Shown piece by piece: positions 1 through 13,408 of a stretch of 64,000 bases of DNA (position 1 is its first letter; every line of letters begins with the position of its first letter). A program made the position numbers and the translations under genes. The notes under the pieces are model-generated. The model saw only the letters and a program-made list of their open reading frames with translations, did no database searches and was not told the origin of the DNA. This DNA comes from Gandjariella thermophila (lineage in GTDB: Bacteria; Actinomycetota; Actinomycetes; Mycobacteriales; Pseudonocardiaceae), in the NCBI RefSeq assembly GCF_005405885.1, contig NZ_BJFL01000002.1, positions 1-64,000 of the forward strand, read 5' to 3'.

Positions 1-240
1 CAGCGGAAGTATGGATCGATAAACTCTCGATACGGTCGACTGGCTGACTCCGAACAGGTCGCCCACAGCCGCCTGGTTCAGATTCTGCCGGACGTATACC
101 AAGGTGAGTACGACAGCGCGATACAGTCCCACCACCGGAGGCCAGACTTGCTTTTTATTACAGGAGACGATCTGCCAAATGCGAGCAACAAGCTCCTCGA
201 TCTGGTCGGCAGCAAGTCCTGTAGTAGACTGGTAACGCAA
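1..240 (-). CDS. IS5-type transposase, N-terminal part (runs off window)
   Basis: An open frame of 80 codons reads from a TTG at 240 to the left edge without a stop. It begins LRYQSTTGLAADQIEELVAR and contains a helix-turn-helix near its end (QAAVGDLFGVSQSTVSRVYR). This matches the N-terminal DNA-binding part of DDE transposases of the IS5/HTH_Tnp_4 kind, which bind the IS ends and cut and join DNA. The TTG start follows an AGGCGGGG stretch. Base composition is clearly lower in GC than the neighbours, as expected for acquired DNA. The catalytic DDE part lies outside the window, so whether the element is intact cannot be judged. Confidence 0.7.
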   Translation of the reverse strand, partial: MRYQSTTGLAADQIEELVARIWQIVSCNKKQVWPPVVGLYRAVVLTLVYVRQNLNQAAVGDLFGVSQSTVSRVYRSILPL

Positions 241-869: not shown

Positions 870-914
870 TGGTGGGCGATACTGGGATTGAACCAGTGAC
901 CTCTACCGTGTCAA
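870..914. repeat. attL-like 45-bp direct repeat
   Basis: This copy is identical over 45 bp to 11751–11795 and comprises the CCA-encoding end, T arm, variable loop and anticodon-arm 3' side of tRNA-Val(GAC). Identity breaks exactly at 869/11750 and 915/11796. It is a tRNA fragment without a 5' half, so it marks the left recombination site and is not a functional tRNA gene. Confidence 0.93.
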
Positions 915-1011
915 CGCGGTTACCAGGTCTCACGAAGTGTCGGCGCGGGGCGCTGATGTGGGCGTTCGTGTTGGCGCGTGTCGGCGCGTTCATGCTGCTG
1001 ACAGCTGGTGT

Positions 1012-1030
1012 GCTGACTTTCTGCTGACTC
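1012..1030. repeat. Left candidate integrase/Xis arm-type site
   Basis: GCTGACTTTCTGCTGACTC here matches GCTGACTTCTCGCTGATTC at 11663–11681 near the other end in the same orientation, with 4 differences in 19. Each copy is itself a tandem pair of GCTGA half-sites 11 bp apart. Paired repeats just inside both att sites are what tyrosine integrases or excisionases use as arm sites. Function is inferred. Confidence 0.45.
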
Positions 1031-1071
1031 GGTGGATGACCTTTGGTGATCAACACCAAGCGGGGAGCCTT

Positions 1072-1210
1072 GTGCCATCCCGTCGACCTGGCGCAGCCCT
1101 ATCACGCCGGGTTCAGGGGCGCGACCTGCCGGCGGACTGCACGGACGGTGCCAAGCTCGCGCCCCTGGTTCCGGCGTGATAGCCCTTCCGGGAGGTCGGC
1201 GGGATGGCGC
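1072..1210. repeat. 139-nt imperfect inverted repeat, candidate replication or transfer origin
   Basis: Positions 1099–1124 pair with 1157–1182 (23 of 26), and an outer block 1072–1090 pairs with 1192–1210 (17 of 19, around CCATCCCG and CGACCT), leaving an apical loop near 1125–1156. The single strand could fold into a long cruciform. A third partial copy of GGGCTATC..CCGG lies near 1247–1257. Elements using RepSA-type rolling-circle replication need a double-strand origin, often a single-strand origin, and a clt transfer locus. This structure is the best candidate in the noncoding end. Confidence 0.5.
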
Positions 1211-1494
1211 TCCGAGCTGCCCGCGTCCGCAGCGTTGCGCCGTTCGGGCTATCCCGGAGACCTGCCGGGGGTGCGGGGGCGGCGAGCGCCCCGCGTCCAC
1301 CTGCGCCGGGTGACCGTTTCTCGCTTGCGGCCCCGGCGGTGGGTCGCCGGCCGGCCTGACCGTCCGGGCGCCGCCGGCCCTACCTCGTGCCGGGCCGGCG
1401 CGGGACCGGCCGCCAGGCCGCACGCCCGCTTGCCGGCCCGGCAGAGGGTCGGGGCCGAGCGGCTTGCCCGGACGGATCGAGAGCCGTCGGCCGA

Positions 1495-1518
1495 GCGGCC
1501 CCGCGCTAGCGGGGCCGC
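1495..1518. terminator. Perfect 10-bp GC hairpin downstream of the PP2C gene
   Basis: GCGGCCCCGC and GCGGGGCCGC flank a GCTA loop. It lies 34 bp beyond the stop of the minus-strand PP2C gene and probably ends that transcript. There is no U-run on the minus strand, which is common for actinobacterial terminators. Confidence 0.6.
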
Positions 1519-1551
1519 CTTGATGAAGAAAAGAAATTCTGAACGTGGGCA

Positions 1552-2385
1552 CTACGGGCGCTGTCGGTGAGTGACGCGGCACGGCTTCCACACCGCGATC
1601 AGCTTGTCGTCGTGCACCTTGGCTCTGGGCAGCAGCGCGCCGGAGGGGTCGTTGCGGCTTTCCCACTCTTGGAGTTCTTGTAGTTGCTCGGCGAGTTGGT
1701 CGTCGGTCATCTCGGCGATCCGTTCCCAGGGGATTCCCAGGTGGTCGACTGGTCGTTGAGCACCATCGGTAGCGAGGATGCACCACTCTACGGTGTCAAT
1801 CGGGAAGCTCTGGACGATGGCGTGTTCGGCTGCGGAGGGATCGGCCTCGGCAATCCAGTATCCACCGGGTGTGTTCCGCGCCGCTAGTTGTTCTTCTTGG
1901 AGGCTACGGAGCAATGCGCGGTGGGTGTTGTCGTAGCCGCTTCCCGTGCGTAGTCGGCTCCGGTACTTGTCGTGGTATTCGGGCGCTACTGCGGCTAGTC
2001 GGGTATCCGTGATGCGGTGTGGTTCGTCGTGGTACGTGGTTTTGACGAGCGCAGTGCTATCGCCTAGCAACAGAAGGTCGATGTTCTCCGAAGACTTGCG
2101 GAGGATCAGCACGGTAGATGACGGAGAATGGCCGGGTTTGAGTTGTAGTTTAGAAGCTACCGCGTTGATTGATCGGCCGAGGATTACGCACAGTGACTCC
2201 TGGTCGGCGGGAAGCCTTTGGGAGAGGTCGGCTATCAGCTCGTCAACGAAACGCTCAGCGTTGATTACCGCAGGGGTGAAACTTGACGCACCGTCCAGCA
2301 CGATCAATCCGTTGGTGACGGCGGCCCAGCGGTCTTGTCCTCGTCCTTCATGGGCCGGTAGGGATGCTGTGTGGATGGTCATCAT
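1552..2385 (-). CDS. PP2C-family protein phosphatase-like protein
   Basis: The 277-residue protein shows the PPM/PP2C landmarks in order: an N-terminal metal-binding Asp-Gly (IVLDGASSF, about residue 31), a central LLLLGDSTALV strand pair, ILATDGAQRPVD near residue 206, and a C-terminal metal motif HDDKLIAVW where the family usually has Asp-Asn/Asp. These enzymes remove phosphate from Ser/Thr with two metal ions. No kinase lies on the element, so its target may be a host Ser/Thr kinase substrate. Its start overlaps by 4 bp the stop of the upstream HTH gene, so the two are translationally coupled. Base composition is lower in GC than the core AICE genes, suggesting it is cargo. Confidence 0.72.
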   Translation of the reverse strand: MMTIHTASLPAHEGRGQDRWAAVTNGLIVLDGASSFTPAVINAERFVDELIADLSQRLPADQESLCVILGRSINAVASKLQLKPGHSPSSTVLILRKSSENIDLLLLGDSTALVKTTYHDEPHRITDTRLAAVAPEYHDKYRSRLRTGSGYDNTHRALLRSLQEEQLAARNTPGGYWIAEADPSAAEHAIVQSFPIDTVEWCILATDGAQRPVDHLGIPWERIAEMTDDQLAEQLQELQEWESRNDPSGALLPRAKVHDDKLIAVWKPCRVTHRQRP

Positions 2386-3206
2386 GTCCAGCCTCGGGGC
2401 GGTACGAGGACGTTCGTCTCAATGGGAGTCAGACCGTCGAACTTGGTTGTGACGGCCATGCTGAACTCGGCATCGCCGTAGTTGGCGAACAGGTCTGGCA
2501 GTGAAGTCATAAGGTAGTGTGCTGCTCCAACAGAGCCGAGGGCGTGTAGTCCTGCGATGTGCACGACCACTTGGTTTCCGTATTGGTGCCGAGCTATGTA
2601 CGCATGGTCGGCTCGTGCAGGCTCGCGTTCGTCCATGGGGGACAGGAACCGCTCGCCGGTCGCCCGGTCCTCGATGTACCAGTGCACGTTGTCACCGAGG
2701 GTCATGCCCAGCAGCGGGTCTTGGGACATGAGCTTGTGACCGATGTGGGCGGAGGCCGGACCGCAGACGACGACGGCGTCGCCGGCGGGCTCCCACTCTT
2801 CGCGGGGGTCGATGATGAACCGGTTGGTCAGGAACACCAGCTTGCCCAGCTCGTCGATGAGGTGGGTGCCGGTGGCGTCGTCCTCGCCGGCGATGACGGG
2901 GTCTTGACGGCCAAGGATGATGCGTCCGGGTAGTGCCACTGTGAGCGGTCCGACACCGAAGAAGGCCCGGTATGCAGGGGGCGCGCTGGACCGGATCTGA
3001 GTGATGCGGCCCTTGGTGAGGCCGAAGGCCTTGGCGACTTCGGCATAGCTGCCTCCGAGGACGTCGCGTGCCTCTTCGATCGCTGCTCGGCGGATGCGAG
3101 CCAGTTCGGTGGAGCGTTGCTGGTAGACGGCGAGCAGCTCCGTGGCGCGTCGCCCCCGGCTGATGGGGTCGGGGTCGCGTCGTACTGCCTCGAAGTCCTC
3201 GTCCAC
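2382..3206 (-). CDS. Sigma-like HTH DNA-binding protein with C-terminal sensor-like domain
   Basis: The 274-residue protein has an N-terminal helical stretch (STELARIRRAAIEEARDVLG) leading into a sigma-70 region-4-like HTH (SYAEVAKAFGLTKGRITQIR, about residues 53–72). The C-terminal 190 residues form a separate alpha/beta domain with DAVVVCGPASAHIGHKLMSQ and VVVHIAGLHALGSVGAAHYL, a pattern I know from uncharacterised Streptomyces HTH proteins but cannot tie to a ligand. It is divergent from the SCO3933-like gene across a 112-bp promoter region and overlaps the PP2C gene downstream. A role as a signal-responsive regulator of this two-gene unit is inference. Confidence 0.6.
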   Translation of the reverse strand: MDEDFEAVRRDPDPISRGRRATELLAVYQQRSTELARIRRAAIEEARDVLGGSYAEVAKAFGLTKGRITQIRSSAPPAYRAFFGVGPLTVALPGRIILGRQDPVIAGEDDATGTHLIDELGKLVFLTNRFIIDPREEWEPAGDAVVVCGPASAHIGHKLMSQDPLLGMTLGDNVHWYIEDRATGERFLSPMDEREPARADHAYIARHQYGNQVVVHIAGLHALGSVGAAHYLMTSLPDLFANYGDAEFSMAVTTKFDGLTPIETNVLVPPRGWT

Positions 3207-3255
3207 GGGCGGCGAGTTTAGACCCCTTGACGCTCGCAGACACGCGGGCTACCCT

Positions 3256-3297
3256 GGTTTAGGCCCCTCAACCAGCAGTACGGCAAGATGGTTTAGG
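3256..3297. promoter_or_regulatory. Direct GGTTTAGG repeats in the divergent AICE promoter region
   Basis: GGTTTAGG occurs at 3256–3263 and 3290–3297, 34 bp apart start to start (about three helical turns), each followed by a C-rich or G-rich run. They lie between the minus-strand HTH gene (start 3206) and the plus-strand SCO3933-like gene (start 3319). The position suits an operator for an element-encoded regulator. No binding protein can be named. Confidence 0.4.
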
Positions 3298-3318
3298 GGG
3301 ATAAACGAAGGAGGCGAG

Positions 3319-3648
3319 ATGCGGGACATCCCGGTCAACCTGGGCGGCTTCAAGCTGCGGATCACGGAGGAGCCGTCGATGAAGATGCGGGAGCGGGACG
3401 GGCAGAAGGAGCCGGTCACCGTGGACGGTGTGAGGCAGTTCACCGTGTCGCTGTTCGCCAAGCGTCCCGGGCAGAAGGGTGAGGAGATCCGGGTGACGCT
3501 GCCGGCGGACCCGGGGGAGGGGTTCGAGGAGGGGGACTTGGTCGAGCTGATCGACGCGACGGTGTCGCCGTACTCGTTCACCAACGGCAGGGGCGAGACG
3601 GTGTCGGGGATGGCGTTCAAGGCGGCCGGTCTGAAGCCGCTGGGCTGA
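3319..3648 (+). CDS. SCO3933-family AICE regulatory protein
   Basis: The 109-residue protein (MRDIPVNLGGFKLRI...) matches the small single-domain family known from SLP1/pSAM2-like elements as SCO3933-type regulatory proteins. It is beta-rich with the conserved FTVSLFAKRPGQKGEEIRVT core and a GLKPL end. The ATG at 3319 is chosen because AAGGAGGCGAG lies just upstream and family members begin with this sequence. An in-frame upstream extension would overlap the divergent gene. It opens the plus-strand AICE operon. Its biochemical role is not established. Regulation of transfer or replication genes is inferred from family name and position. Confidence 0.72.
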   Translation: MRDIPVNLGGFKLRITEEPSMKMRERDGQKEPVTVDGVRQFTVSLFAKRPGQKGEEIRVTLPADPGEGFEEGDLVELIDATVSPYSFTNGRGETVSGMAFKAAGLKPLG

Positions 3649-3869
3649 CCACCCGTTTGATTCCGCGTTCCGTTCTAATCGAGCGCACGACGTAAGCCGT
3701 TTTGGCGGCTGCCTGCTCTTTGAGAATTCCATAGTGGGCCGAACCATGCCTGAAAACGGCGCAATGTGTTCTTTGGTTGCGCACATTGGCCCCCGGGGGC
3801 CGGTGGTTTCCGGGGGTCTTTGTGGCTGACCGAGGAACGGAGTTTCGGCGACAGAGGTGGTGGGCGGTG

Positions 3870-3953
3870 ATGGCGTGCGCGCACTGGTTCTTTTACGTGA
3901 TCGGTGGTTTGGCGACGTGTTGCGACTGCGGCCATACGTGGCGGGTCGGATAG
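3870..3953 (+). CDS. 27-residue Cys-rich small protein
   Basis: A short frame starts with ATG at 3870 and encodes a peptide with TCCDCGHTW near its end, a CxxCGHxW zinc-knuckle-like motif, ending WRVG. It ends 9 bp before the next gene, and its stop overlaps the AGGAGG ribosome site of that gene. Tiny Cys-rich frames at this place occur in other actinomycete elements. The upstream 220 bp (3649–3869) holds only a 14-bp palindrome GGCCCCCGGGGGCC at 3788–3801. The length makes the call uncertain. Confidence 0.45.
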   Translation: MACAHWFFYVIGGLATCCDCGHTWRVG

Positions 3954-3962
3954 GAGGTCGGC

Positions 3963-4190
3963 ATGGCAGGGGCAAGTGGCGAGCCGGTCAAGCGTCGGTA
4001 TCCGGTCAAGCCGATGGAGGATGGCGACGATCCCCGGTTCACGTTCGGGCTGGTCTTGGAGGTGGCCGAGGTGCTGGCCAAGCACGGGTATCCCTCGCCG
4101 GCTGATCCGAGCTGCGCCATGGATTTCGTGGACCTGCGGCAGATGCTGTTCCGGTTCCTCTACGCGGAGGACCGGCGGGGGTTGTGGTGA
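3963..4190 (+). CDS. Conserved AICE hypothetical protein
   Basis: The 75-residue acidic protein contains YPVKPMEDGDDPRFTFGL followed by LEVAEVLAKHGYP and FVDLRQMLFRFLYAE. This pattern is conserved among small proteins upstream of tra in Streptomyces and Pseudonocardiaceae AICEs. There is no membrane segment or catalytic motif. TAGGAGGTCGGC precedes the ATG. It lies 9 bp after the 27-residue frame and 6 bp before the GIY-YIG-like gene, within one operon. Function unknown. Confidence 0.7.
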   Translation: MAGASGEPVKRRYPVKPMEDGDDPRFTFGLVLEVAEVLAKHGYPSPADPSCAMDFVDLRQMLFRFLYAEDRRGLW

Positions 4191-4196
4191 TCCGAG

Positions 4197-4745
4197 ATGG
4201 GCTCACCGCAGGGGACGGTGTATCTGCTGCATTTTGATCGGCCGTATGAGCACGCGCGGCATTACACCGGGTGGACGACCGATCTGGACTCCCGGCTGGC
4301 CGAGCACGCGACCGGGCGGGGTGCCCGGCTGTTAGAGGTGGTCAGCGCGGCCGGGATCGGGTGGGAGCTGGCGCGCACGTGGCCGGGCACGCGGGCGCGG
4401 GAGCGGCAACTGAAACGGCAGGGCGGCGCATCGCGGCATTGCCCGATGTGCGGCGTGAAACCACGAAACGGAGGGTTATCGGTGCAAGTACAGGCGGTCA
4501 ACCGGCAGGCACAACGCAAGTACGCGGAGTTCATCGGCGCGCTGGACTTCGTGCGCGAGGTGCTGACTGAGGCCGGGAAGCTGGTGAAGAAGCACAACGG
4601 CAAGCCGGGGGACGCGGCGTGGTCGATCCCGGATCGGGACGAGTTGGAGGCCGCGCACAAGAAGGCGGTGGACGATTTGCAGGCGCTGCGGTCCAGCGCG
4701 AAGAAGTACGAGAAGGAACTCGTGTCGCGGACGTGGAGGGTCTAG
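4197..4745 (+). CDS. GIY-YIG-like nuclease domain fused to a helical C-terminal part
   Basis: Residues 1–90 carry a GIY-YIG-superfamily pattern: TVYLLHF at 7–13 and HYTGWTTDL at 22–30 replace GIY and YIG, followed by the RLAEH helix. The domain ends with a CPMC pair (Cys82, Cys85). Such nucleases cut DNA with a Tyr/Arg/Glu site. The remaining 90 residues (from VQVQAVNRQAQRKYAEF) are helical with a coiled-coil-like KKAVDDLQALRSSAKKYEKEL stretch and no link to GIY-YIG folds. A good internal start (GTG 4482 behind GGAGGG) suggests that two genes have become fused or that two products are made. The gene starts 6 bp after the preceding stop. Confidence 0.6.
   Translation: MGSPQGTVYLLHFDRPYEHARHYTGWTTDLDSRLAEHATGRGARLLEVVSAAGIGWELARTWPGTRARERQLKRQGGASRHCPMCGVKPRNGGLSVQVQAVNRQAQRKYAEFIGALDFVREVLTEAGKLVKKHNGKPGDAAWSIPDRDELEAAHKKAVDDLQALRSSAKKYEKELVSRTWRV
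4482..4745 (+). CDS. Possible nested or independent small helical protein (internal start)
   Basis: A GTG at 4482 is preceded by GGAGGG with 5–6 nt spacing, in frame with the GIY-YIG-like gene, and would give an 87-residue protein beginning (M)QVQAVNRQAQRKYAEF. The product is charged and helical. The site is exactly at the boundary between the zinc-pair end of the nuclease domain and the unrelated C-terminal part. It may be the true separate gene, with the upstream nuclease lacking a stop here. Choosing between the models needs expression data. Confidence 0.4.
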   Translation: MQVQAVNRQAQRKYAEFIGALDFVREVLTEAGKLVKKHNGKPGDAAWSIPDRDELEAAHKKAVDDLQALRSSAKKYEKELVSRTWRV

Positions 4746-4747
4746 TC

Positions 4748-4930
4748 GTGAGCTACCAGGCGGACCGGGTGACCGAGAACATCGACAAGGCGATGAAGCA
4801 ACTGCGGGAGGCGATGAAGGGTATTCCGATTCGCTGGGCGGGGTTCAAGAAGGAACACGACAACGCCGCCCGGTCGATGGCGAACCTGACCGTGCTGATC
4901 ACCGACGCGCGGTCGTCATTCAAGCGGTGA
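4748..4930 (+). CDS. Small helical AICE protein
   Basis: A GTG at 4748, just after the preceding stop and behind GGAGGG, encodes 60 residues (VSYQADRVTENIDKAMKQLR...) with the look of one or two long amphipathic helices and no Cys or membrane segment. It lies directly upstream of the tra promoter/terminator region and co-directional with it. No function can be assigned. Confidence 0.55.
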   Translation: MSYQADRVTENIDKAMKQLREAMKGIPIRWAGFKKEHDNAARSMANLTVLITDARSSFKR

Positions 4931-4953
4931 CCAACCAACCCAACGGAGGGGAG

Positions 4954-5014
4954 CGGGGCCGGCCCGGGGCACTCCTGCGCTTTGTCGCGCGGGTGGTTGT
5001 CGGGGTCGGCCCCG
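4954..5014 (+). terminator. Long-loop hairpin before tra
   Basis: CGGGGCCGGCCC at 4954–4965 pairs with GGGTCGGCCCCG at 5003–5014 (one G·U), followed by TTTCC. It separates the small-gene operon from tra and could be a weak terminator or attenuator limiting translocase expression. Confidence 0.4.
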
Positions 5015-5040
5015 TTTCCTGTCGGGAGGTGTGAGATTCG

Positions 5041-6405
5041 ATGCGTGAGCAGGCGAAGTCCAAGCGCCGCACTGGGATCGAGGTGCGGGCCGGGTTGTGG
5101 CTGGCCCGGCATCCGCACTTTGTGGCGGGTCCGGCGGCGGTCGCGGCGAGTGTGGCCGAACTCGGCCCGGTGGCCACCGGCAGCATCGTCGGCGGGCTGA
5201 CGGCCGGCATGTTGGCCTGGTACCGGGCGCACCCGGACTCCTTCGACACCCTGGTCGCGCCCCGGCTGCGGGCGTTTCGCAGGCGGTGGTGCTCCCGCTA
5301 CACCGGCCACCTGTGGCGGGACGTGGCGCTGTCCTGCGACCTGGCCCCGGTGCACCGCCGCACGGGGGAGCACCGGTTTCCTCGGGTGCTGCGGGTGCGC
5401 TCGTACTCGCCGACGATCGACTCGGTGCTGGTGCGGATGGTGCCGGGCCAGTCGGTGCGCGACTGGCAGGACCGCGCCGAGGCCATGGCCGATGCCCTGC
5501 GGGTGGAGCGGGTGGCGATTGAGCGGGTCCGGCCGCAGATTCTCGGCCTGGTGGTGCAACGTGCCGAGCCGTTCACCGAGGTCATCGACGCACCCGAGAT
5601 CCCCGCCGATGTGGACGCGGTGGATGTGGGTCGGTTGTATCTCGGGGAGGACGAGTACGGCCACGACTGGTGCGAACGGCTGGCCGGTCGGCACTGGTTC
5701 GTCGTCTCGGCCACCGGTGGCGGGAAGAACAGCATCGGCTGGTCGGCGGCGCGCAGTCTGGTTCCGCTGATCGGCGAGGGCTCCTGCCGGTTGTGGATGC
5801 TGGACCCGAAGCGGGTGGAGCTGCAGGCCGGGGCGGGCATGGCCCATCGGTATGCGGCCGAGCCGGACGAGATGCACGCGGTGGTTGAGGAGTACGTGGA
5901 AGACCTGCGCGAGACGCAGCGCCGGTTGTCGGCGGCGGGGCTGCGCAAGGTCACCACACCCTCCCGGGAGTTCCCGCTCAACGTGCTGATGATGGACGAG
6001 CTGGGGATGCTGATGGCCTATGGCGATTCCCGGCTCGCGCGGGACTACCGCTCCTGGCTGGCTGAGATCGGTTCCCAGGGGCGGGCCACGCTGCACTCGA
6101 TGATGGGTTTCGTTCAGGAACCCACCAAGGACGTGGTGCCGATCCGGGACCTGTTCACCACCCGGGTGTGTCTGCGGGTCACGGCGGCGTCGCATGTGGA
6201 CATGGCGCTGGGGGATGGGGCCAGGTTGCGCGGCGCCCTGGCCGATGAGATCCCCGACGACCCGGCCACCGCCGGTATTGGCTACGTGGTCCGCCAGCGT
6301 TCCCGCGTCCCGATGCGCGTGCGCGCGGCCTATGTGGACGACCGGGAGATCACCGAGATGGTCGAGGCCGTCCAGCGCGGCCGGGACCTGCGCGTCGTCG
6401 CCTAG
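5041..6405 (+). CDS. tra: FtsK/SpoIIIE-like conjugative DNA translocase (Tra)
   Basis: The 454-residue protein begins with a basic stretch and hydrophobic segments (about residues 26–60, VAGPAAVAASVAELGPVATG), then an FtsK-like ATPase domain. Walker A is ATGGGKNS with Lys229, and Walker B is NVLMMDEL with Asp319-Glu320. AICE Tra proteins form hexameric pores that move double-stranded element DNA between mycelia, unlike relaxase-based conjugation. The length matches pSAM2-type TraSA minus some of its N-terminus. GGGAGGTGTGAG precedes the ATG. The second Gly and the Asn in the P loop differ from the commoner GATGAGKGS but keep the essential Gly-Lys-x-Ser. Confidence 0.88.
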   Translation: MREQAKSKRRTGIEVRAGLWLARHPHFVAGPAAVAASVAELGPVATGSIVGGLTAGMLAWYRAHPDSFDTLVAPRLRAFRRRWCSRYTGHLWRDVALSCDLAPVHRRTGEHRFPRVLRVRSYSPTIDSVLVRMVPGQSVRDWQDRAEAMADALRVERVAIERVRPQILGLVVQRAEPFTEVIDAPEIPADVDAVDVGRLYLGEDEYGHDWCERLAGRHWFVVSATGGGKNSIGWSAARSLVPLIGEGSCRLWMLDPKRVELQAGAGMAHRYAAEPDEMHAVVEEYVEDLRETQRRLSAAGLRKVTTPSREFPLNVLMMDELGMLMAYGDSRLARDYRSWLAEIGSQGRATLHSMMGFVQEPTKDVVPIRDLFTTRVCLRVTAASHVDMALGDGARLRGALADEIPDDPATAGIGYVVRQRSRVPMRVRAAYVDDREITEMVEAVQRGRDLRVVA

Positions 6406-6488
6406 CCGGCGCGCGGCCCGGCCACCCCTCGGGCGATGCCCCTTTCCCTTTCCCATTTCCGCACCGGTATTTCCGGGAGGTCTTTGTC

Positions 6489-6818
6489 ATGCCCCGAAGT
6501 GAACTCGGCAGCAGCTACCCGGGATACCGGGCGCTGATGCTGGCCCTGTTCGGCCGCTCTGGTCGGCCACCCGCGTGGCGTGCCCGCGCGGCCTGCCGGG
6601 ATGAGGACCCGGCGGTTTTCGATGACCCGGACCGCACCGACGACGCCCTGGCCGTGTGCGCCGGCTGCCCCGTGGTCGAGGAATGCCGCACGGATCAACT
6701 CGCCTGGGAGCGGCAGTCCGGGGTCCGCCGCTTCCACCCCTCCGGCGTCGTTGGCGGCCTGACCGGCACCGAACGCCACCGCATCCACTACCCGCCCAAG
6801 AAGAAGGAGGTGGCCTGA
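6489..6818 (+). CDS. WhiB-like iron-sulfur transcription factor
   Basis: The 109-residue protein has the four cluster cysteines Cys36, Cys57, Cys60 and Cys66 (CAGCPVVEEC) and the turn SGVVGGLTGTER that follows them in all Wbl proteins. A short basic end (PPKKKEVA) replaces the usual AT-hook-like tail. Wbl proteins hold a 4Fe-4S cluster and regulate by binding sigma factors such as SigA. Being on the element, it may control transfer or host development genes. GGGAGGTCTTTGTC precedes the ATG, and its stop overlaps the next start (TGATG). Confidence 0.88.
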   Translation: MPRSELGSSYPGYRALMLALFGRSGRPPAWRARAACRDEDPAVFDDPDRTDDALAVCAGCPVVEECRTDQLAWERQSGVRRFHPSGVVGGLTGTERHRIHYPPKKKEVA

Positions 6819-7027
6819 TGCGCCCCGTCCTGCTCGTGGACACCCGCACCGCCGGCCGCGCGGTGCGGCTGTTCGTCAAGGCCCTGTTGCTCGCCGCGCT
6901 GGCGGTGTTCGTGGTCTACGTCGTCTACGGCCTGGTCGCCGCCGTCACCGCCGGCCTGGTCGCCGGCCTGCTGCTCGCGTTCGCCGTGCGGGTGGCGCGC
7001 TGGTTACTGCGCGGGGGAGGGGACTGA
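6818..7027 (+). CDS. Small two-helix membrane protein
   Basis: The ATG overlaps the stop of the WhiB-like gene. The 69-residue product is mostly hydrophobic from residue 19 to 60 (LFVKALLLAALAVFVVYVVY then GLVAAVTAGLVAGLLLAFAV), predicting two membrane helices with Arg-rich ends. An AAGAAGGAGG site lies 8 nt upstream. Position between tra and spd-like genes suggests a part in mycelial spread, which is inference. Confidence 0.6.
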   Translation: MRPVLLVDTRTAGRAVRLFVKALLLAALAVFVVYVVYGLVAAVTAGLVAGLLLAFAVRVARWLLRGGGD

Positions 7028-7028
7028 C

Positions 7029-7520
7029 GTGGACGGCTTCCAGCCGGCCCTGTTCGGCAGCGCCGCCATCCCGGCCAAGCCGGCCAAGCCAGCCGATCAA
7101 CCGGCGCGGTCGCCGCGTGGCCAGCGGGGCGGATCACCCCAGGTGGCCGCCGAGGTGTTGGCCGAGGTCAACCAGGGCCGCTACGGGGTGGTGGATGCCA
7201 CCGACCGGATCGTGGTCTTCGAAGACTGGGACCGGGTGCGCCACGCCGTCGAGGAAGACGTGATCGCCTCGCTGATGGCCGGCGGCTACGTCACGCAGAA
7301 CGGCAAGGACACCGTGGTGTGCCATCACGGCGCGATCCTCCGACCGGTGACCCCGCTGCGGCTGACCCACCGGGGCCGGCAATTGCTCTCGCGCTGGTCC
7401 GCGCTCAAACCGCTCGGCTCGACCACGCGGTGCCTGTGGTGCGGCAAGCAACCCGTGGCCGGCATGTGGCTGGGCGATCCGCTGTGCGCGGACTGCCTGG
7501 CCGGCGCACGGGTCGAGTAA
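7029..7520 (+). CDS. Zinc-ribbon AICE hypothetical protein
   Basis: A GTG at 7029 follows the preceding stop by one base. The 163-residue protein has a Pro/Ala/Lys-rich N-terminus, a middle winged-helix-like part (VVFEDWDRVRHAVEEDVIASLMAGGYV ... LRLTHRGRQLLSRW), and a C-terminal CLWCGK..PLCADCL pair of CxxC motifs that should bind zinc. This is a DNA-binding look, but the family is unnamed to me. It is in the tra operon, upstream of the DUF2637-like gene. Confidence 0.55.
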   Translation: MDGFQPALFGSAAIPAKPAKPADQPARSPRGQRGGSPQVAAEVLAEVNQGRYGVVDATDRIVVFEDWDRVRHAVEEDVIASLMAGGYVTQNGKDTVVCHHGAILRPVTPLRLTHRGRQLLSRWSALKPLGSTTRCLWCGKQPVAGMWLGDPLCADCLAGARVE

Positions 7521-7572
7521 CCACAGCCAGCGGACCGTCCACACCAAACCAACAGAAGGGAGGAATACCGCC

Positions 7573-8331
7573 GTGTCCGCACGCAACAAGGCCGCCGGGT
7601 TCGGCGGGTGGCTGGCCGGCGCGATCCCGGTGCTGGTGGCCACGGTGCTGGGTGGGATCGGCGCGGCGGCCGGCTTCACCCACACCCATGATTGGGCCGA
7701 GCACCACGGCCAGCACGGCTGGCTGGCGTGGGCGGACGCGGTGGTCATCGAGGGCATCGCCACCGTGGCCGGCTTCGAGATCCACCGCGACCACCGCGCC
7801 GGCCGGCACCCGTCGTGGCGCTCGTTCCCGGTCGTGGTCCTGGTGGTCGGCTTCGTCGTCCAGATGGCCGCCCAGGTCGCCGAAGCCGAACCCAGCCTGC
7901 CCGGCTGGCTCTTGGCCGCGATGCCCGCGCTCGGGTTCCTCACCGTGGTCAAGCTGCTCATCCGCCGGATCCCCGCCGACACGCCGGCACCGTCCACCCC
8001 GGACACCGACCACACCGACAAAGCCACCAACCGGGAAGCCCCGGCCCGGCCGGCACCTTCGGCCGCTACGGCGGCGGGCGCGTCGGCTCGGCCGGTACCT
8101 CGGACGCGGCTGCGGCTGCCGACGGAGATGCGCGAGGCGATCCACGCCACGGCCGACCAAGCCGCCCGCGACGGCCGGGAACTGACCGTCGACGACGTCC
8201 GCCAAGCCGTCCGCGTCCCGGCCGACCTGGCGGAACAGATCGTGCGAGAGATCAACCACGCCCGCAACGGGCACACCCTCACCGGCTCAACAACCCACAC
8301 TCGACAACTCTCGGAAGGACAAACCCCGTGA
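7573..8331 (+). CDS. DUF2637/Spd-like membrane protein with C-terminal DNA-binding-like tail
   Basis: The 252-residue protein has about four hydrophobic segments in its first 135 residues (AGAIPVLVATVLGGIGAAAG, AVVIEGIATVAGF, FPVVVLVVGFVVQMAAQ, LLAAMPALGFLTVVKLL). A Pro/Thr-rich linker (about 140–180) and a charged helical tail (LPTEMREAIHATADQAARDG...) follow. This is the DUF2637 architecture found in actinomycete plasmids and AICEs at the place of spread (spd) genes, which support intramycelial plasmid movement with Tra. The GTG start sits behind GGGAGGAATACC. Its stop overlaps the next start by 4 bp. Confidence 0.65.
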   Translation: MSARNKAAGFGGWLAGAIPVLVATVLGGIGAAAGFTHTHDWAEHHGQHGWLAWADAVVIEGIATVAGFEIHRDHRAGRHPSWRSFPVVVLVVGFVVQMAAQVAEAEPSLPGWLLAAMPALGFLTVVKLLIRRIPADTPAPSTPDTDHTDKATNREAPARPAPSAATAAGASARPVPRTRLRLPTEMREAIHATADQAARDGRELTVDDVRQAVRVPADLAEQIVREINHARNGHTLTGSTTHTRQLSEGQTP

Positions 8332-8612
8332 TCGCTGGGATGTACGACGGACAGATGTACGACGCGTACGGGTACGGCGAGTACCACGCCCGCCCGGACG
8401 GCAGCGTGTGGCTGCCCCGGATCAGCGACGAGGACTACACCAAGCACGAGACCCGCGTCGCCTACTACGAACCTCTCGGGGACCTGCTGCCCTGGCAACT
8501 GTGCCACCCCACCTGTGACCGGCCGGTCCGACGCAACGGCGCTCCGCTGGAGGGGCTGCGGTGGGCTGTCGCCGAGGATCTGCCACCTGATCAACCTTTC
8601 TCCGCCGCGTAA
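8328..8612 (+). CDS. Small AICE hypothetical protein
   Basis: The GTG at 8328 overlaps the stop of the preceding gene (GTGA). The 94-residue product is rich in Tyr and Asp at its N-terminus (MYDGQMYDAYGYGEYHARPD), has a WLPRI strand and a CHPTC motif, and no membrane segment. Coupled position between spd-like and rep genes is typical of uncharacterised AICE proteins. No function can be assigned. Confidence 0.55.
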   Translation: MIAGMYDGQMYDAYGYGEYHARPDGSVWLPRISDEDYTKHETRVAYYEPLGDLLPWQLCHPTCDRPVRRNGAPLEGLRWAVAEDLPPDQPFSAA

Positions 8613-8725
8613 CCGCACCACCGACGCATTCCACGGGGCATGGCCGGCATTGGCCGTGTCCCGTTCTCGCTTCCGGCCCGTGCCGGCCCTGACCCCGTCC
8701 CCTCGTCCATTTAGGAAGGAGGTCA

Positions 8726-10078
8726 GTGGTCGTGCTGACTCTGGAAGACCGCATCACCCGCCGGCTCCGCGCCAGCGACTACACCGGCTGGCGGGCCAAG
8801 GTGGAGGCCACCGGCGGCTGCCTACACCCGGTGCACCTCACCGGCCGCTACGAGCTGCAAGACCTCACCGGCGCGGCACTCACTGGCCGGTCCGGGCACA
8901 TCTTCGCCCCGTGCGGCAACCGCCGCGCCAGCGTGTGCCCGGCCTGCTCGGACCGCTACGCCGCCGACGCCTTCCACCTCGTCCGCGCCGGCCTGGCCGG
9001 CGGCACCAAGGGCGTGCCCGGCTCGGTGGCGGAGCGGCCGCGGTTCTTCGTCACCCTCACCGCCCCCTCGTTCGGCCCGGTGCACAACCGGCGCGTCTCC
9101 CGGCGAGGTCGGGTCCAGCCGTGTGCCTGTGGCGGCTACCACCACGACGCGGACCCGCGCATCGGCACCCCGCTGGACCCGGCCGGCTACGACTACACCG
9201 CGGCGGTGCTGTGGCAGGCCCACGCCGGCGAACTGTGGCACCGGTTCACCATCGCCCTGCGCCGCCAGCTCGCCCACGCCGCCGGGCTGTCCGAACGGGC
9301 CTTCCGCGAGTCCGCCCGGCTGTCTTACGCCAAGGTCGCCGAATACCAACGCCGCGGGCTGATCCACTTCCACGCGGCCATCCGCATCGACGGCCCCACC
9401 GGACCCGACACCCCGGCCCCCGCGTGGGTCACCGCCGACCTCCTCGAGCACGCCATCCGCGCCGCCGCCCGCACGGTCACCCTCACCGCCGCCCGCCCGG
9501 ACGGCGCCCCGGTCGAGCTGGTCTGGGGCGAACAGGTCGACATCCGCCGCATCCGCCCCGACCAGGCGCACCAGGTCGAGGACAAGCGCGGGGAGATCAG
9601 CGACCAACGGCTGGCCGGCTACGTCGCCAAGTACGCCACCAAGGGCACCGGCAAGACCGAAGCCGCCGACCGGCCGATCCGCTCGCAACGCGACATCGAC
9701 CACCTGGCCGTCGCCGACCACCACCGGCGAATGATCCAAACCTGCTGGGACCTCGGCGCGCTGCCGCAATACCAGCGGCTGAACCTGCGCAAGTGGGCCC
9801 ACATGCTCGGCTTCCGGGGCCACTTCCTGACCAAGTCCAAGCACTACTCGACCACCTTCAAGGCCATCCGCGAAGAACGCCGCACCTACCGGCTGCGGCA
9901 AACCCTGGACGAACTCGAAACCCAGGGCGTGGACCTCGACACCGTGGTGGTCGTCAACCACTGGCAATTCACCGGCATCGGCTACGCCGACCAGGCCGAA
10001 CGCGAACTAGCTGAAGCCATCGGCGAACGCAAACGCCAACAACGCCAACGGAAGTACGAACAGGAGGAAGCAGCATGA
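8726..10078 (+). CDS. repSA: RepSA-type rolling-circle replication initiator
   Basis: The 450-residue protein has an N-terminal zinc-knuckle-like region (CGNRRASVCPACSDRYAAD), motif I FFVTLTAPS, the HUH metal motif IHFHAAIR (His214, His216), and a catalytic tyrosine motif YVAKYATKG (Tyr299/Tyr303). These are the hallmarks of Rep from pSAM2-type elements, which nick the double-strand origin and prime rolling-circle replication of the excised circle. A strong GGAAGGAGGT is 2 nt before the GTG at 8726. GTG 8732 is better spaced and may be the true start. Its stop overlaps the xis start (ATGA). Confidence 0.9.
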   Translation: MVVLTLEDRITRRLRASDYTGWRAKVEATGGCLHPVHLTGRYELQDLTGAALTGRSGHIFAPCGNRRASVCPACSDRYAADAFHLVRAGLAGGTKGVPGSVAERPRFFVTLTAPSFGPVHNRRVSRRGRVQPCACGGYHHDADPRIGTPLDPAGYDYTAAVLWQAHAGELWHRFTIALRRQLAHAAGLSERAFRESARLSYAKVAEYQRRGLIHFHAAIRIDGPTGPDTPAPAWVTADLLEHAIRAAARTVTLTAARPDGAPVELVWGEQVDIRRIRPDQAHQVEDKRGEISDQRLAGYVAKYATKGTGKTEAADRPIRSQRDIDHLAVADHHRRMIQTCWDLGALPQYQRLNLRKWAHMLGFRGHFLTKSKHYSTTFKAIREERRTYRLRQTLDELETQGVDLDTVVVVNHWQFTGIGYADQAERELAEAIGERKRQQRQRKYEQEEAA

Positions 10079-10425
10079 CGAGCCACCACGGCAGCTCGAA
10101 TGCGTACGTGCAGCCGTACGTGCCGCAGGGCGGAGACAGCGTGGGGGAGGTGCTTCCGTTCCGCGCTCTCGCCGGCTCGCCCGGGAGGAATGGCCGGACT
10201 CAACAGGGTCGTGGCGTCGGGCCGAGGTCGAACATCTCAACGGAGCGCCTGGTCTACAAGGTGGACGAGGTGGCCCGGATGCTGGGTCTGTCGCGGGGGA
10301 TGGCCTACCAGTACGTGCGGGAGGGCGTGATTCCTGCCGAACGCATCGGCCGGCGCTGGGTGATACCGCGCCGCCGGTTCCACGCCTGGCTCGATGGGCT
10401 CTCGGCGGAGGGAGGTGGTTTCTGA
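10075..10425 (+). CDS. xis: Excisionase, MerR/HTH_17 type (Xis)
   Basis: The 116-residue protein has a disordered N-terminal half and a C-terminal winged HTH (LVYKVDEVARMLGLSRGMAY then QYVREGVIPAERIGRRWVIPRRRFHAWLD, about residues 59–109) of the type used by AICE excisionases. Xis bends DNA at the att arms so that integrase recombines attL with attR. It overlaps repSA by 4 bp and the integrase start by 1 base, the compact rep-xis-int order of pSAM2. The unusually long N-terminal tail may mean that the functional protein starts internally. Confidence 0.8.
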   Translation: MTSHHGSSNAYVQPYVPQGGDSVGEVLPFRALAGSPGRNGRTQQGRGVGPRSNISTERLVYKVDEVARMLGLSRGMAYQYVREGVIPAERIGRRWVIPRRRFHAWLDGLSAEGGGF

Positions 10426-11678
10426 TGGGCCACATCGTCCAGACCCCGGCCGGAAGCTGGCGGGCGAACTGGCGCGAACCTTCCGGCCGCCAACGGTCGA
10501 AGACGTTCAAGACCAAGCGGGAAGCGAGAGCCTTTCTCGCCCAGGTCGAGACAGCGAAGACCCGGGGTGAGTACGTCAGCCCCCACGGTGGGCGGACGCT
10601 GTTCCGGGATCACGCTGACCGGTGGATGAAGGCGCGGCGCACCGAGATCACCACGGCCGCGCGGGATGCCTCGGTGATGCGAACCCACGTGTTGCCGCAG
10701 TGGGGTGACTGGCCACTGGCCAAGATCGATGAACTGTCGGTGCAGACATGGATCACCGAGCTGGCCGGTCGGCGGTCGCAACCGGTCGTTGCGAAGTGCC
10801 TCCAGCTCACCTCGGCGGTGATGCGCTCGGCGGTCCGCAACAAGCTGATCGGCACCAACCCCTGCGAGGGCGTCACACTGCCGAAGCTGCGGAAGCGGGA
10901 CACCGACGAGCGGATCATCAGTCGGGCGGACCTGCGGGCGCGGTTACTCCCCGCTGTGCCCGAGCGGTACCGCGCTGTGGTAGCTGCGGCGGCCGGCGCG
11001 GGCCTGCGTTGGGGCGAGGTCGTCGGCCTGTGCACCGACGCGGTGGACCTCGACGCGGGCTACCTGCGCGTGGTCCGGACCGTGGTTGAGGTCGCGGGCA
11101 ACACGTCGATTAAGCCCTACCCGAAGTCCAGCGCGGGCCGGCGCACGGTCCCGCTGCCGTCCTGGGTGGTTGAGGTCATCTACGAGCACCTGACGCGGTT
11201 CCCGGTCACGGACGGCGCGCTGCTGTTCACGAACCTGGCCGGGGGAGCATTGCGGCGGACCCTCTTCCGCTCCCGGGTCTGGCGGCCGGCGCTCGTGCGA
11301 GCTGGTCTGCTCGGCCGGGTGACGGCGACCGAGGCCGACACCTGGCGAGGGGAGTGGACCGCCGAGGACGGCACCGCGGCGGCCAAGGACTTCACCAGCG
11401 AGACGGAGGCCATCAAGGTCGTTGCCCGCGAGGCGGCCGGCGGGCTGCGCTTCCATGATCTCCGCCACTCCTACGCCACCTGGCTGGTTGACGACGGTGT
11501 GCCGGTGAACATGGTCCAGCGGGTGCTCGGGCACGAACGCTCGTCCACCACGCTCGACCTCTACACCCGGCGCACCGATGACGGGGGCCGCATCCTGCGG
11601 GCACTCGGGGACGCTGACGAGGACGGCCCGGACGATGATCCCGATGAGTCAGCGGGCGGAGCGCTGACTTCTCGCTGA
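10425..11678 (+). CDS. int: Tyrosine site-specific integrase
   Basis: The 417-residue protein has an N-terminal AP2-like arm-binding region (GSWRANWREPSGRQRSKTFK), a SAM-like core-binding domain (about 62–150), and a catalytic domain with Arg195 (GLRWGEVVGL), His344-x-x-Arg347 (HDLRH), His370 (LGHERS) and nucleophile Tyr380 (LDLYTRR). The insertion around residues 300–335 between catalytic strands is common in actinomycete integrases. It recombines the 45-bp sites, the right copy lying 72 bp downstream within tRNA-Val. The ATG shares a base with the xis stop. Confidence 0.95.
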   Translation: MGHIVQTPAGSWRANWREPSGRQRSKTFKTKREARAFLAQVETAKTRGEYVSPHGGRTLFRDHADRWMKARRTEITTAARDASVMRTHVLPQWGDWPLAKIDELSVQTWITELAGRRSQPVVAKCLQLTSAVMRSAVRNKLIGTNPCEGVTLPKLRKRDTDERIISRADLRARLLPAVPERYRAVVAAAAGAGLRWGEVVGLCTDAVDLDAGYLRVVRTVVEVAGNTSIKPYPKSSAGRRTVPLPSWVVEVIYEHLTRFPVTDGALLFTNLAGGALRRTLFRSRVWRPALVRAGLLGRVTATEADTWRGEWTAEDGTAAAKDFTSETEAIKVVAREAAGGLRFHDLRHSYATWLVDDGVPVNMVQRVLGHERSSTTLDLYTRRTDDGGRILRALGDADEDGPDDDPDESAGGALTSR

Positions 11679-11681
11679 TTC
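11663..11681. repeat. Right candidate integrase/Xis arm-type site
   Basis: GCTGACTTCTCGCTGATTC overlaps the last codons and stop of int. It matches the left site at 1012–1030 in the same orientation at 15 of 19 positions, 70 bp from the right att repeat (the left one is 97 bp away). The coincidence at both ends supports an arm-site role. Confidence 0.42.
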
Positions 11682-11698
11682 TCCACGGCCCCAGACAC

Positions 11699-11752
11699 CA
11701 CGAAGGCCAGGTCGCCGGCTCCTGATCAAGCCTGTGACCTGGCCCTTTCGTG
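11699..11752. terminator. Bidirectional hairpin between int and tRNA-Val
   Basis: CACGAAGGCCAGGTC at 11699–11713 pairs with GACCTGGCCCTTTCGTG at 11736–11752 with a 2-nt bulge and a 22-nt loop. It lies between the convergent int gene and the tRNA-Val 3' end and would terminate transcription from both sides. Because it is inside the element, it replaces the tRNA operon's own terminator now at 821–852. Confidence 0.6.
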
Positions 11753-11795
11753 GTGGGCGATACTGGGATTGAACCAGTGACCTCTACCGTGTCAA
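11751..11795. repeat. attR-like 45-bp direct repeat
   Basis: This is the right copy of the 45-bp repeat shared with 870–914. It is contained in the intact tRNA-Val(GAC) gene, which the element restores on integration. Confidence 0.93.
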
Positions 11796-11825
11796 GGTAG
11801 CGCTCTCCCACTGAGCTAATCGCCC
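11751..11825 (-). tRNA. tRNA-Val(GAC)
   Basis: The minus strand folds as a complete tRNA: acceptor GGGCGAT/ATCGCCC, anticodon stem CTACC/GGTAG with loop TTGACAC giving anticodon GAC, T arm GGTTCAATCC, and an encoded CCA at 11751–11753. It is the last of three minus-strand tRNA genes and the integration target of the AICE. Confidence 0.95.
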
Positions 11826-11826
11826 G

Positions 11827-11898
11827 AGGCGGAGGCGGGAATCGAACCCGCGTACAGGGCTTTGCAGGCCCTTGCCTAAACCACTCGGCCACTCCGCC
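11827..11898 (-). tRNA. tRNA-Cys(GCA)
   Basis: The minus strand gives acceptor GGCGGAG/CTCCGCC with U discriminator, anticodon loop CTGCAAA (anticodon GCA) and T loop GGTTCGATTCC. CCA is not encoded. It is 1 nt from tRNA-Val(GAC), so the two are processed from one transcript. Confidence 0.95.
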
Positions 11899-11957
11899 GT
11901 TGCCCCAGGGGTGAGAAGTTACCCCAGGATTCCGGCCCGGGCAGAAGGGCCGCCCAG

Positions 11958-12030
11958 AGCGGACGACGGGACTCGAACCCGCGACCCTCACCTTGGCAAG
12001 GTGATGCGCTACCAACTGCGCTACGTCCGC
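11958..12030 (-). tRNA. tRNA-Gly(GCC)
   Basis: The minus strand gives acceptor GCGGACG/CGTCCGC with U discriminator, anticodon stem TCACC/GGTGA with loop TTGCCAA (anticodon GCC), and T loop GGTTCGAGTCC. CCA is not encoded. It is the first gene of the Gly-Cys-Val tRNA cluster. Confidence 0.95.
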
Positions 12031-13328: not shown

Positions 13329-13400
13329 GGGCGATTAGCTCAGCGGGAGAGCGCTTCGTTCACACCGAAGAGGTCACTGGTTCGATCCCAGTATCGCCCA
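13329..13400 (+). tRNA. tRNA-Val(CAC)
   Basis: Acceptor GGGCGAT/ATCGCCC with A discriminator, anticodon stem CTTCG/CGAAG with loop TTCACAC (anticodon CAC), and T loop GGTTCGATCC. CCA is not encoded. Its T arm and acceptor differ by only one base from those of tRNA-Val(GAC), so it resembles the AICE target. Confidence 0.95.
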
Positions 13401-13408
13401 CTCACCGC

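Follow-up and report, generated by a model that had tools for sequence, protein, structure and literature searches.

Does the DNA between two copies of a tRNA-derived repeat near the left end of a Gandjariella thermophila contig constitute a complete actinomycete integrative and conjugative element (AICE), where exactly does it begin and end, and how would it replicate, express its genes and move? We address these questions for positions 870–11795 of contig NZ_BJFL01000002.1, using as the window the 64-kb stretch from position 1 to 64,000 (this genome is referred to as G000). Based on the repeats, the tRNA target, the genes between them and the relatives of the element, we conclude with high confidence that 870–11795 is an integrated AICE with a pSAM2-type RepSA replicon.

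Boundaries and Target Site

The boundaries of the element are observed directly. A 45-bp att repeat is present in two identical copies, a distal one at 870–914 and a tRNA-proximal one at 11751–11795, and both end exactly at these limits. The proximal copy is the 3' half of tRNA-Val(GAC), from the anticodon loop through CCA. This tRNA is intact on the minus strand (11751–11825; ARAGORN and Rfam) and is followed by tRNA-Cys (11826–11898) and tRNA-Gly (11957–12030) in a Val-Cys-Gly cluster. The Rfam scan returned four tRNAs and nothing else, and a tRNA-Val(CAC) at 13329–13401 resembles the att core region with a 91% match. An exact 45-bp repeat at a spacing of 10.9 kb is far beyond what chance would produce, and the first 14 kb contain no further exact direct repeat of at least 25 bp with copies more than 3 kb apart. 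Flanking direct att repeats, one of them in the 3' end of a tRNA, are among the features by which AICEs are recognized (Ghinet et al. 2011, PMC3218068).

We compared the element with 20 relatives from the same bacterial family, the Pseudonocardiaceae, chosen by Tra similarity (48–62%). Nine of these 20 are bounded by tRNA-derived repeats of 38–71 bp, and two more have repeats of this type. Among the ten with exact tRNA-like repeats that lie 10.5–13.2 kb apart, nine overlap an ARAGORN tRNA or its 3' end, and the tenth is tRNA-like by sequence. The initial annotation had described an AICE in tRNA-Val(GAC) that is framed by exact 45-bp repeats and can be precisely delimited from sequence. The coordinates and the identity of the repeats, the tRNA-Val(GAC) target and the AICE assignment are confirmed, and the tRNA-derived repeats of related elements, about 10–13 kb apart, back the delimitation.

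Just inside each boundary lies a candidate arm-type site for Int on the plus strand, GCTGACTTTCTGCTGACTC in the left arm (1012–1030) and GCTGACTTCTCGCTGATTC in the right arm (11663–11681), where it overlaps the 3' end of int. The pattern GCTGACTTYTSGCTGAYTC, which was built from these two sites, matches only them in the 64 kb, compared with 0.03 matches expected. Six Int relatives (L074, L075, L042, L076, L038 and L039) have the same GCTGAC repeat, again with a step of 11 bp, at the end of the element next to int, which provides independent support for the candidate arm sites. The predicted junction of the excised circle (attP) reads ...ctggccctttcg-core-cgcggttaccagg..., and that of the empty site (attB) reads ...accagcacatatgcc-core-ggtagcgctctccc....

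Core Genes and Proposed Mechanism

The core genes, all on the plus strand, can be assigned to families by profile searches. A RepSA rolling-circle initiator with HUH and Tyr motifs (8726–10078; PF20199, E = 7e-156, 520 bits) is followed by xis, which encodes an HTH_17 excisionase (10075–10425; TIGR01764, PF12728), and by int, which encodes a tyrosine recombinase (10425–11678; PF00589). Upstream lies tra, encoding an FtsK/SpoIIIE-type translocase (5041–6405) that matches PF01580 above the curated cut-off and has family homologs that are 48–62% identical. By the description of Ghinet et al. (2011, PMC3218068), an AICE has an FtsK/SpoIIIE-domain Tra (PF01580), a Rep of the RepSA, RepAM or Prim-Pol type and a tyrosine or serine integrase accompanied by xis; the element has such a Tra, a RepSA-type Rep and a tyrosine integrase with xis. 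The NCBIfam equivalog model for pSAM2-type RepSA, NF041486, gives 472 bits (E = 1.6e-141) against a cut-off of 700 bits; the Rep of the window is a member of the RepSA family and not a pSAM2 equivalog.

The claim of a full rep-xis-int plus tra/spd set stands in part: rep, xis, int and tra are supported by their families, but for spd there are only candidates. The first is a small hydrophobic protein of 69 aa, a possible Spd by sequence (6818–7027, plus strand), for which profile searches found no family match. The second is a DUF2637 protein (7573–8331, plus strand; PF10935, 2e-7). Both hold the usual place of spd genes, and neither matched an spd family.

We infer excision, replication and transfer from these genes. 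At integration, Int recombined the 45-bp core of the circular form with its counterpart in the 3' half of tRNA-Val(GAC); the tRNA stays intact because the core of the element itself completes it. Xis together with Int would excise the circle, RepSA would replicate it by the rolling-circle mechanism from an origin at the left end, and the FtsK-like Tra would move double-stranded DNA between hyphae.

An Earlier Occupant of the Same tRNA

The distal att repeat also marks, on the right, the limit of a remnant left by an older element. This remnant, approximately 775–869 on the plus strand, is the int-side end of a second type of tRNA-Val element and consists of TGCTCCCg/TGCTCCCA, a hairpin and TCTGACCAG. 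It matches the int-adjacent ends in four loci (L046, L050, L051 and L053), and contig C69 of the same genome has another copy of this end together with a core. In those four loci the second tRNA-Val(GAC) element type has an integrase like the one on contig C48, 27% identical to the Int of the window, which reaches the core; relatives that carry the remnant motif with no detectable integrase are presumably remnants as well. We considered whether the left flank is the native sequence downstream of the tRNA and rejected this, since a different integrase open reading frame (ORF) reaches the same motif in several relatives. Farther left, 511–641 matches an IS3-like end, and 1–341 is the end of a multicopy insertion sequence (IS); the genome has this end, complete or partial, at some 20 sites, many of them at contig ends. 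Thus, the AICE adjoins the remnant of an earlier occupant of the same tRNA, a case of accretion, and the assembly ends there. The AICE would have arrived beside a remnant that was already in place.

Additional core copies are present elsewhere in the genome. A third copy on contig C69 (2007–2054, minus strand; L006) has a left flank that is 94% similar, followed by a different arm sequence, with BacA-like and DUF347 genes nearby, and it is probably another end of a tRNA-Val array. Contig C48 has a decayed core (139–168, minus strand; L007) and, some 0.8 kb away, an intact integrase that belongs to the second tRNA-Val family (C48:1013–2302). These copies, together with the known occurrence of tandem AICEs at single tRNAs (PMC3218068; PMC9513070), would fit a larger composite mobile unit made of the remnant and the AICE, with a further core to the left of the contig end, of which 870–11795 would be only the inner part. 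We regard this as improbable, given that an arm-type site is present close within each boundary (870 and 11795) and that the related elements are of equal size and gene span.

A candidate for an unoccupied site comes from another genome, G001, in which a tRNA-Val(GAC) on contig C9 (L073) has a single core copy and no integrase detected within 10 kb. When the left flank of this site was compared with G000, it matched scattered contigs (C5, C24 and C3), and the native left neighbor was not placed.

Integrity of Tra and of the Element

Several points weigh against a complete and mobile AICE. The conserved residues of Int, Rep and Tra had initially been judged intact, which holds for the catalytic signatures of Int (R/K/HxxR/H/Y) and Rep (HUH and Tyr motif) but not for Tra, whose P-loop, SATGGGKNS, begins with Ser (residue 223) where all 25 aligned relatives have Gly. 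This substitution may weaken transfer. In addition, the left att repeat abuts a remnant, IS fragments and the contig end, and no element-free genome in this comparison has a matching left flank. What is seen of the AICE is its integrated form in assembled sequence.

It is unlikely, yet worth weighing, that the AICE is defective, that is, that it looks complete but has lost transfer through an impaired Tra and survives by vertical inheritance or with the help of another AICE. Besides the P-loop, the decayed element and the IS copies next to it are in keeping with such a fate, and a second AICE-type Tra, 37% identical, is encoded in the same genome (C32:17220–18542). On the other hand, the reading frames of all core genes are intact, as are the signatures of Int and Rep, and the exactness of the att repeats points to recent integration or to selection.

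Relatives and Modular Exchange

The element is syntenic with the 20 related elements. They share a backbone of SCO3933-like protein, Tra and RepSA in the order SCO3933-Tra-Rep, usually together with a DUF2637 protein and a tyrosine integrase. Where an integrase is detected, it is only about 23–32% identical to the Int of the window, and the target sites are mostly near tRNA genes for Pro, Arg, Lys, Leu or Met. The closer homologs of the Int (55–66% identity) directly adjoin a tRNA-Val gene, which is GAC in L074 (Longimycelium) and L075 and CAC in L076 and in the Micromonospora loci L038 and L039. The gene order in these Int relatives at tRNA-Val is usually rep-xis-int, and any Tra detected with them shares only 27–35% identity with that of the window. 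The Int thus travels with other backbones and the backbone carries other integrases, which indicates that the integration module and the backbone have been exchanged. Module exchange between the integration and backbone parts of AICEs has been described previously (Ghinet et al., PMC3218068; PMC9513070). In Actinomycetospora straminea (L041, 11348–11394), the sequence after the Int homolog contains part of a tRNA-Val(CAC) core but no actual tRNA, which suggests another tandem array.

Candidate Replication Origins

Alignment of the noncoding DNA of the element with that of the 20 related elements yielded three conserved blocks, A, B and C. Block A (1070–1211) is a long conserved hairpin and, based on pairing and covariation, a candidate single-strand origin (sso). 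Among 18 sequences, 26 of its 43 pairs have changed on both strands of the stem, a strong covariation. Paired cells make up 96.9%, compared with 81.8% after shuffling (none of 500 shuffles as high) and 32–44% when the alignment was slid. Block B (1488–1544, plus strand) is a hairpin followed by CTTGA (1519–1523) and, by conservation, a candidate nick region of the double-strand origin (dso). It is present in 20 related loci, two of them with a distant backbone, and CTTGA is invariant in the 21 aligned sequences; the predicted cut is at 1522/1523. Initiators of the phiX174/pC194 type have the nick consensus CTTG^A. RepSA has been related to these initiators (PMC3218068). We infer that blocks A and B may represent an sso and a dso in the usual geometry, with the hairpin just upstream. 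We also looked for clt repeats or Tra recognition sequences (TRS) beside tra and found none.

An rRNA-Type boxA Motif in the tra Leader

Block C (3712–3832, plus strand) is a leader on the coding strand. In all 20 related elements it separates the SCO3933-like gene from the tra genes; in two of them it extends only over the first ~50 nt, the boxA half. It contains a boxA-like sequence, TTTGAGAATTCCATAGTG, at 3719–3736, followed by hairpins including a terminator-like CCCCCGG...CCGGGGG, and such a hairpin follows the boxA in most of the related elements. Conservation within the block is highest at TTTGASAATTnnAnAGTG. This 18-nt motif is identical or nearly identical to the boxA that the hosts have in their 16S leader and 16S–23S spacer and by sequence qualifies as a boxA; in mycobacteria, boxA has likewise been described in both the leader and the spacer of rRNA (PMC5676007).

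We scanned nine Pseudonocardiaceae genomes for the motif with up to one mismatch. The matches are mostly pairs on the same strand about 2 kb apart, and the ten motif loci that have Rfam matches are all leaders of 16S or 23S rRNA. The other matches include three AICE leaders (in the window, G014 and G033), a small number of single sites and, in G016, two sites with one mismatch; in G014 and G033 the leader motif lies 1.4 kb upstream of tra. A reversed control pattern gave one match in total. When a model of block C was run on 297 genomes, many of them from other families and with 12 of thousands of candidates scored per genome, the window was the sole match, an outcome that carries no information on how widely the leader occurs.

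Judging from the motif and its setting, the element most likely uses host Nus factors for transcriptional read-through. We further propose, as a reading that we hold to be evenly balanced between true and false, that this family of Pseudonocardiaceae AICEs took over the antitermination signal of host rRNA: boxA would carry the polymerase past the hairpin and through the long tra-rep-int operon, and expression would be tied to host Nus factors. It is also possible, if somewhat disfavored, that the leader holds no antitermination signal and that its likeness to boxA reflects coincidence, rRNA processing or decoy binding. The likeness to rRNA leaders spans only about 25 nt, the antitermination reading is drawn from sequence, and a few loci in the nine scanned genomes with Tra proteins ~50% identical have no motif nearby at up to one mismatch. 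Against coincidence or a decoy, the boxA motif is the best-kept part of block C in all 20 elements, on the correct strand and upstream of the tra genes; in most of them it precedes a terminator-like hairpin, and elsewhere the motif is almost exclusive to rRNA operons. In the literature searched we found no earlier report of an rRNA-type boxA in the tra leader of an AICE, which is not proof that none exists.

Regulatory and Other Genes

Between block B and the leader, two genes on the minus strand form a pair. The first (1552–2385) encodes a PP2C-like phosphatase of 277 aa whose PP2C_2 match is weak (PF13672, E = 2e-5, 24.7 bits against a cut-off of 24); the DG, GDS, ATDG and DD motifs, as expected for metal binding, are kept in eight homologs. 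The second (2382–3206) encodes a helix-turn-helix (HTH) protein of 274 aa with weak HTH matches that fall under the cut-off. The PP2C gene is present in 7 of the 20 related elements, in five with the HTH partner (49–75% identical) and in two alone. In those five the position and orientation of the pair are the same as in the window, and by comparison of positions the pair is inside the att repeats wherever these are known. A PDB sequence search and PADLOC gave no useful match for either protein, and single-sequence structure predictions had a pLDDT of 36 (PP2C) and 42 (HTH), the PP2C model being too poor for use. A regulatory or signaling role of the module is likely. In the same genome, an integrase on contig C3 (365105) lies about 9 kb from a PP2C homolog (355928).

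The remaining genes are on the plus strand. The SCO3933-like protein (3319–3648; NF051478, E = 7e-10, under its curated cut-off) is found in 20 of 20 related elements, and a WhiB-like regulator is encoded at 6489–6818 (PF02467, 5e-14). An ORF at 4197–4745 has weak GIY-YIG similarity at its N-terminus and is conserved only from about residue 59–96 onward. It runs in frame, with no stop, into a conserved gene with a separate GGAGG, resembling a Shine-Dalgarno sequence, and a GTG at 4482, where that gene may start. Among the family matches of the element proteins there is no Nudix or GntR (KorSA-type) gene.

Relation to Known Systems and Significance

The element is an ordinary AICE of a common actinomycete kind, about 11 kb long and well delimited, and its Tra may be a weak point. 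Its regulatory set, with the PP2C and HTH pair and the SCO3933-like gene, differs from that of the RepSA AICEs whose prototype is pSAM2 of Streptomyces ambofaciens. It resembles AICE03 of Streptomyces (PMC9513070) in its tRNA-Val target (46-nt repeats there, 45 bp here), in modular integrase exchange and in accretion at one tRNA, whereas the host family differs; the likeness is drawn at the level of description. The 18-nt motif is shared with the NusB/NusE-dependent boxA antitermination of rRNA operons, but in the window boxA stands in the leader of an AICE tra operon ahead of a terminator-like hairpin. Another comparison system for this leader is antitermination in an integrative and conjugative element, as in Tn916 (PMC11658703).

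With its predicted core and arm sites, the element is useful as a tRNA-Val integration system. The conserved cis-elements weigh more than the element itself: they include candidates for the dso and the sso of this AICE family and a transfer-operon leader that seems to copy the rRNA boxA. If the reading of the boxA leader is true, it would explain in a simple and testable way what lets transcription run through AICE operons of 8 kb and what couples it to growth.
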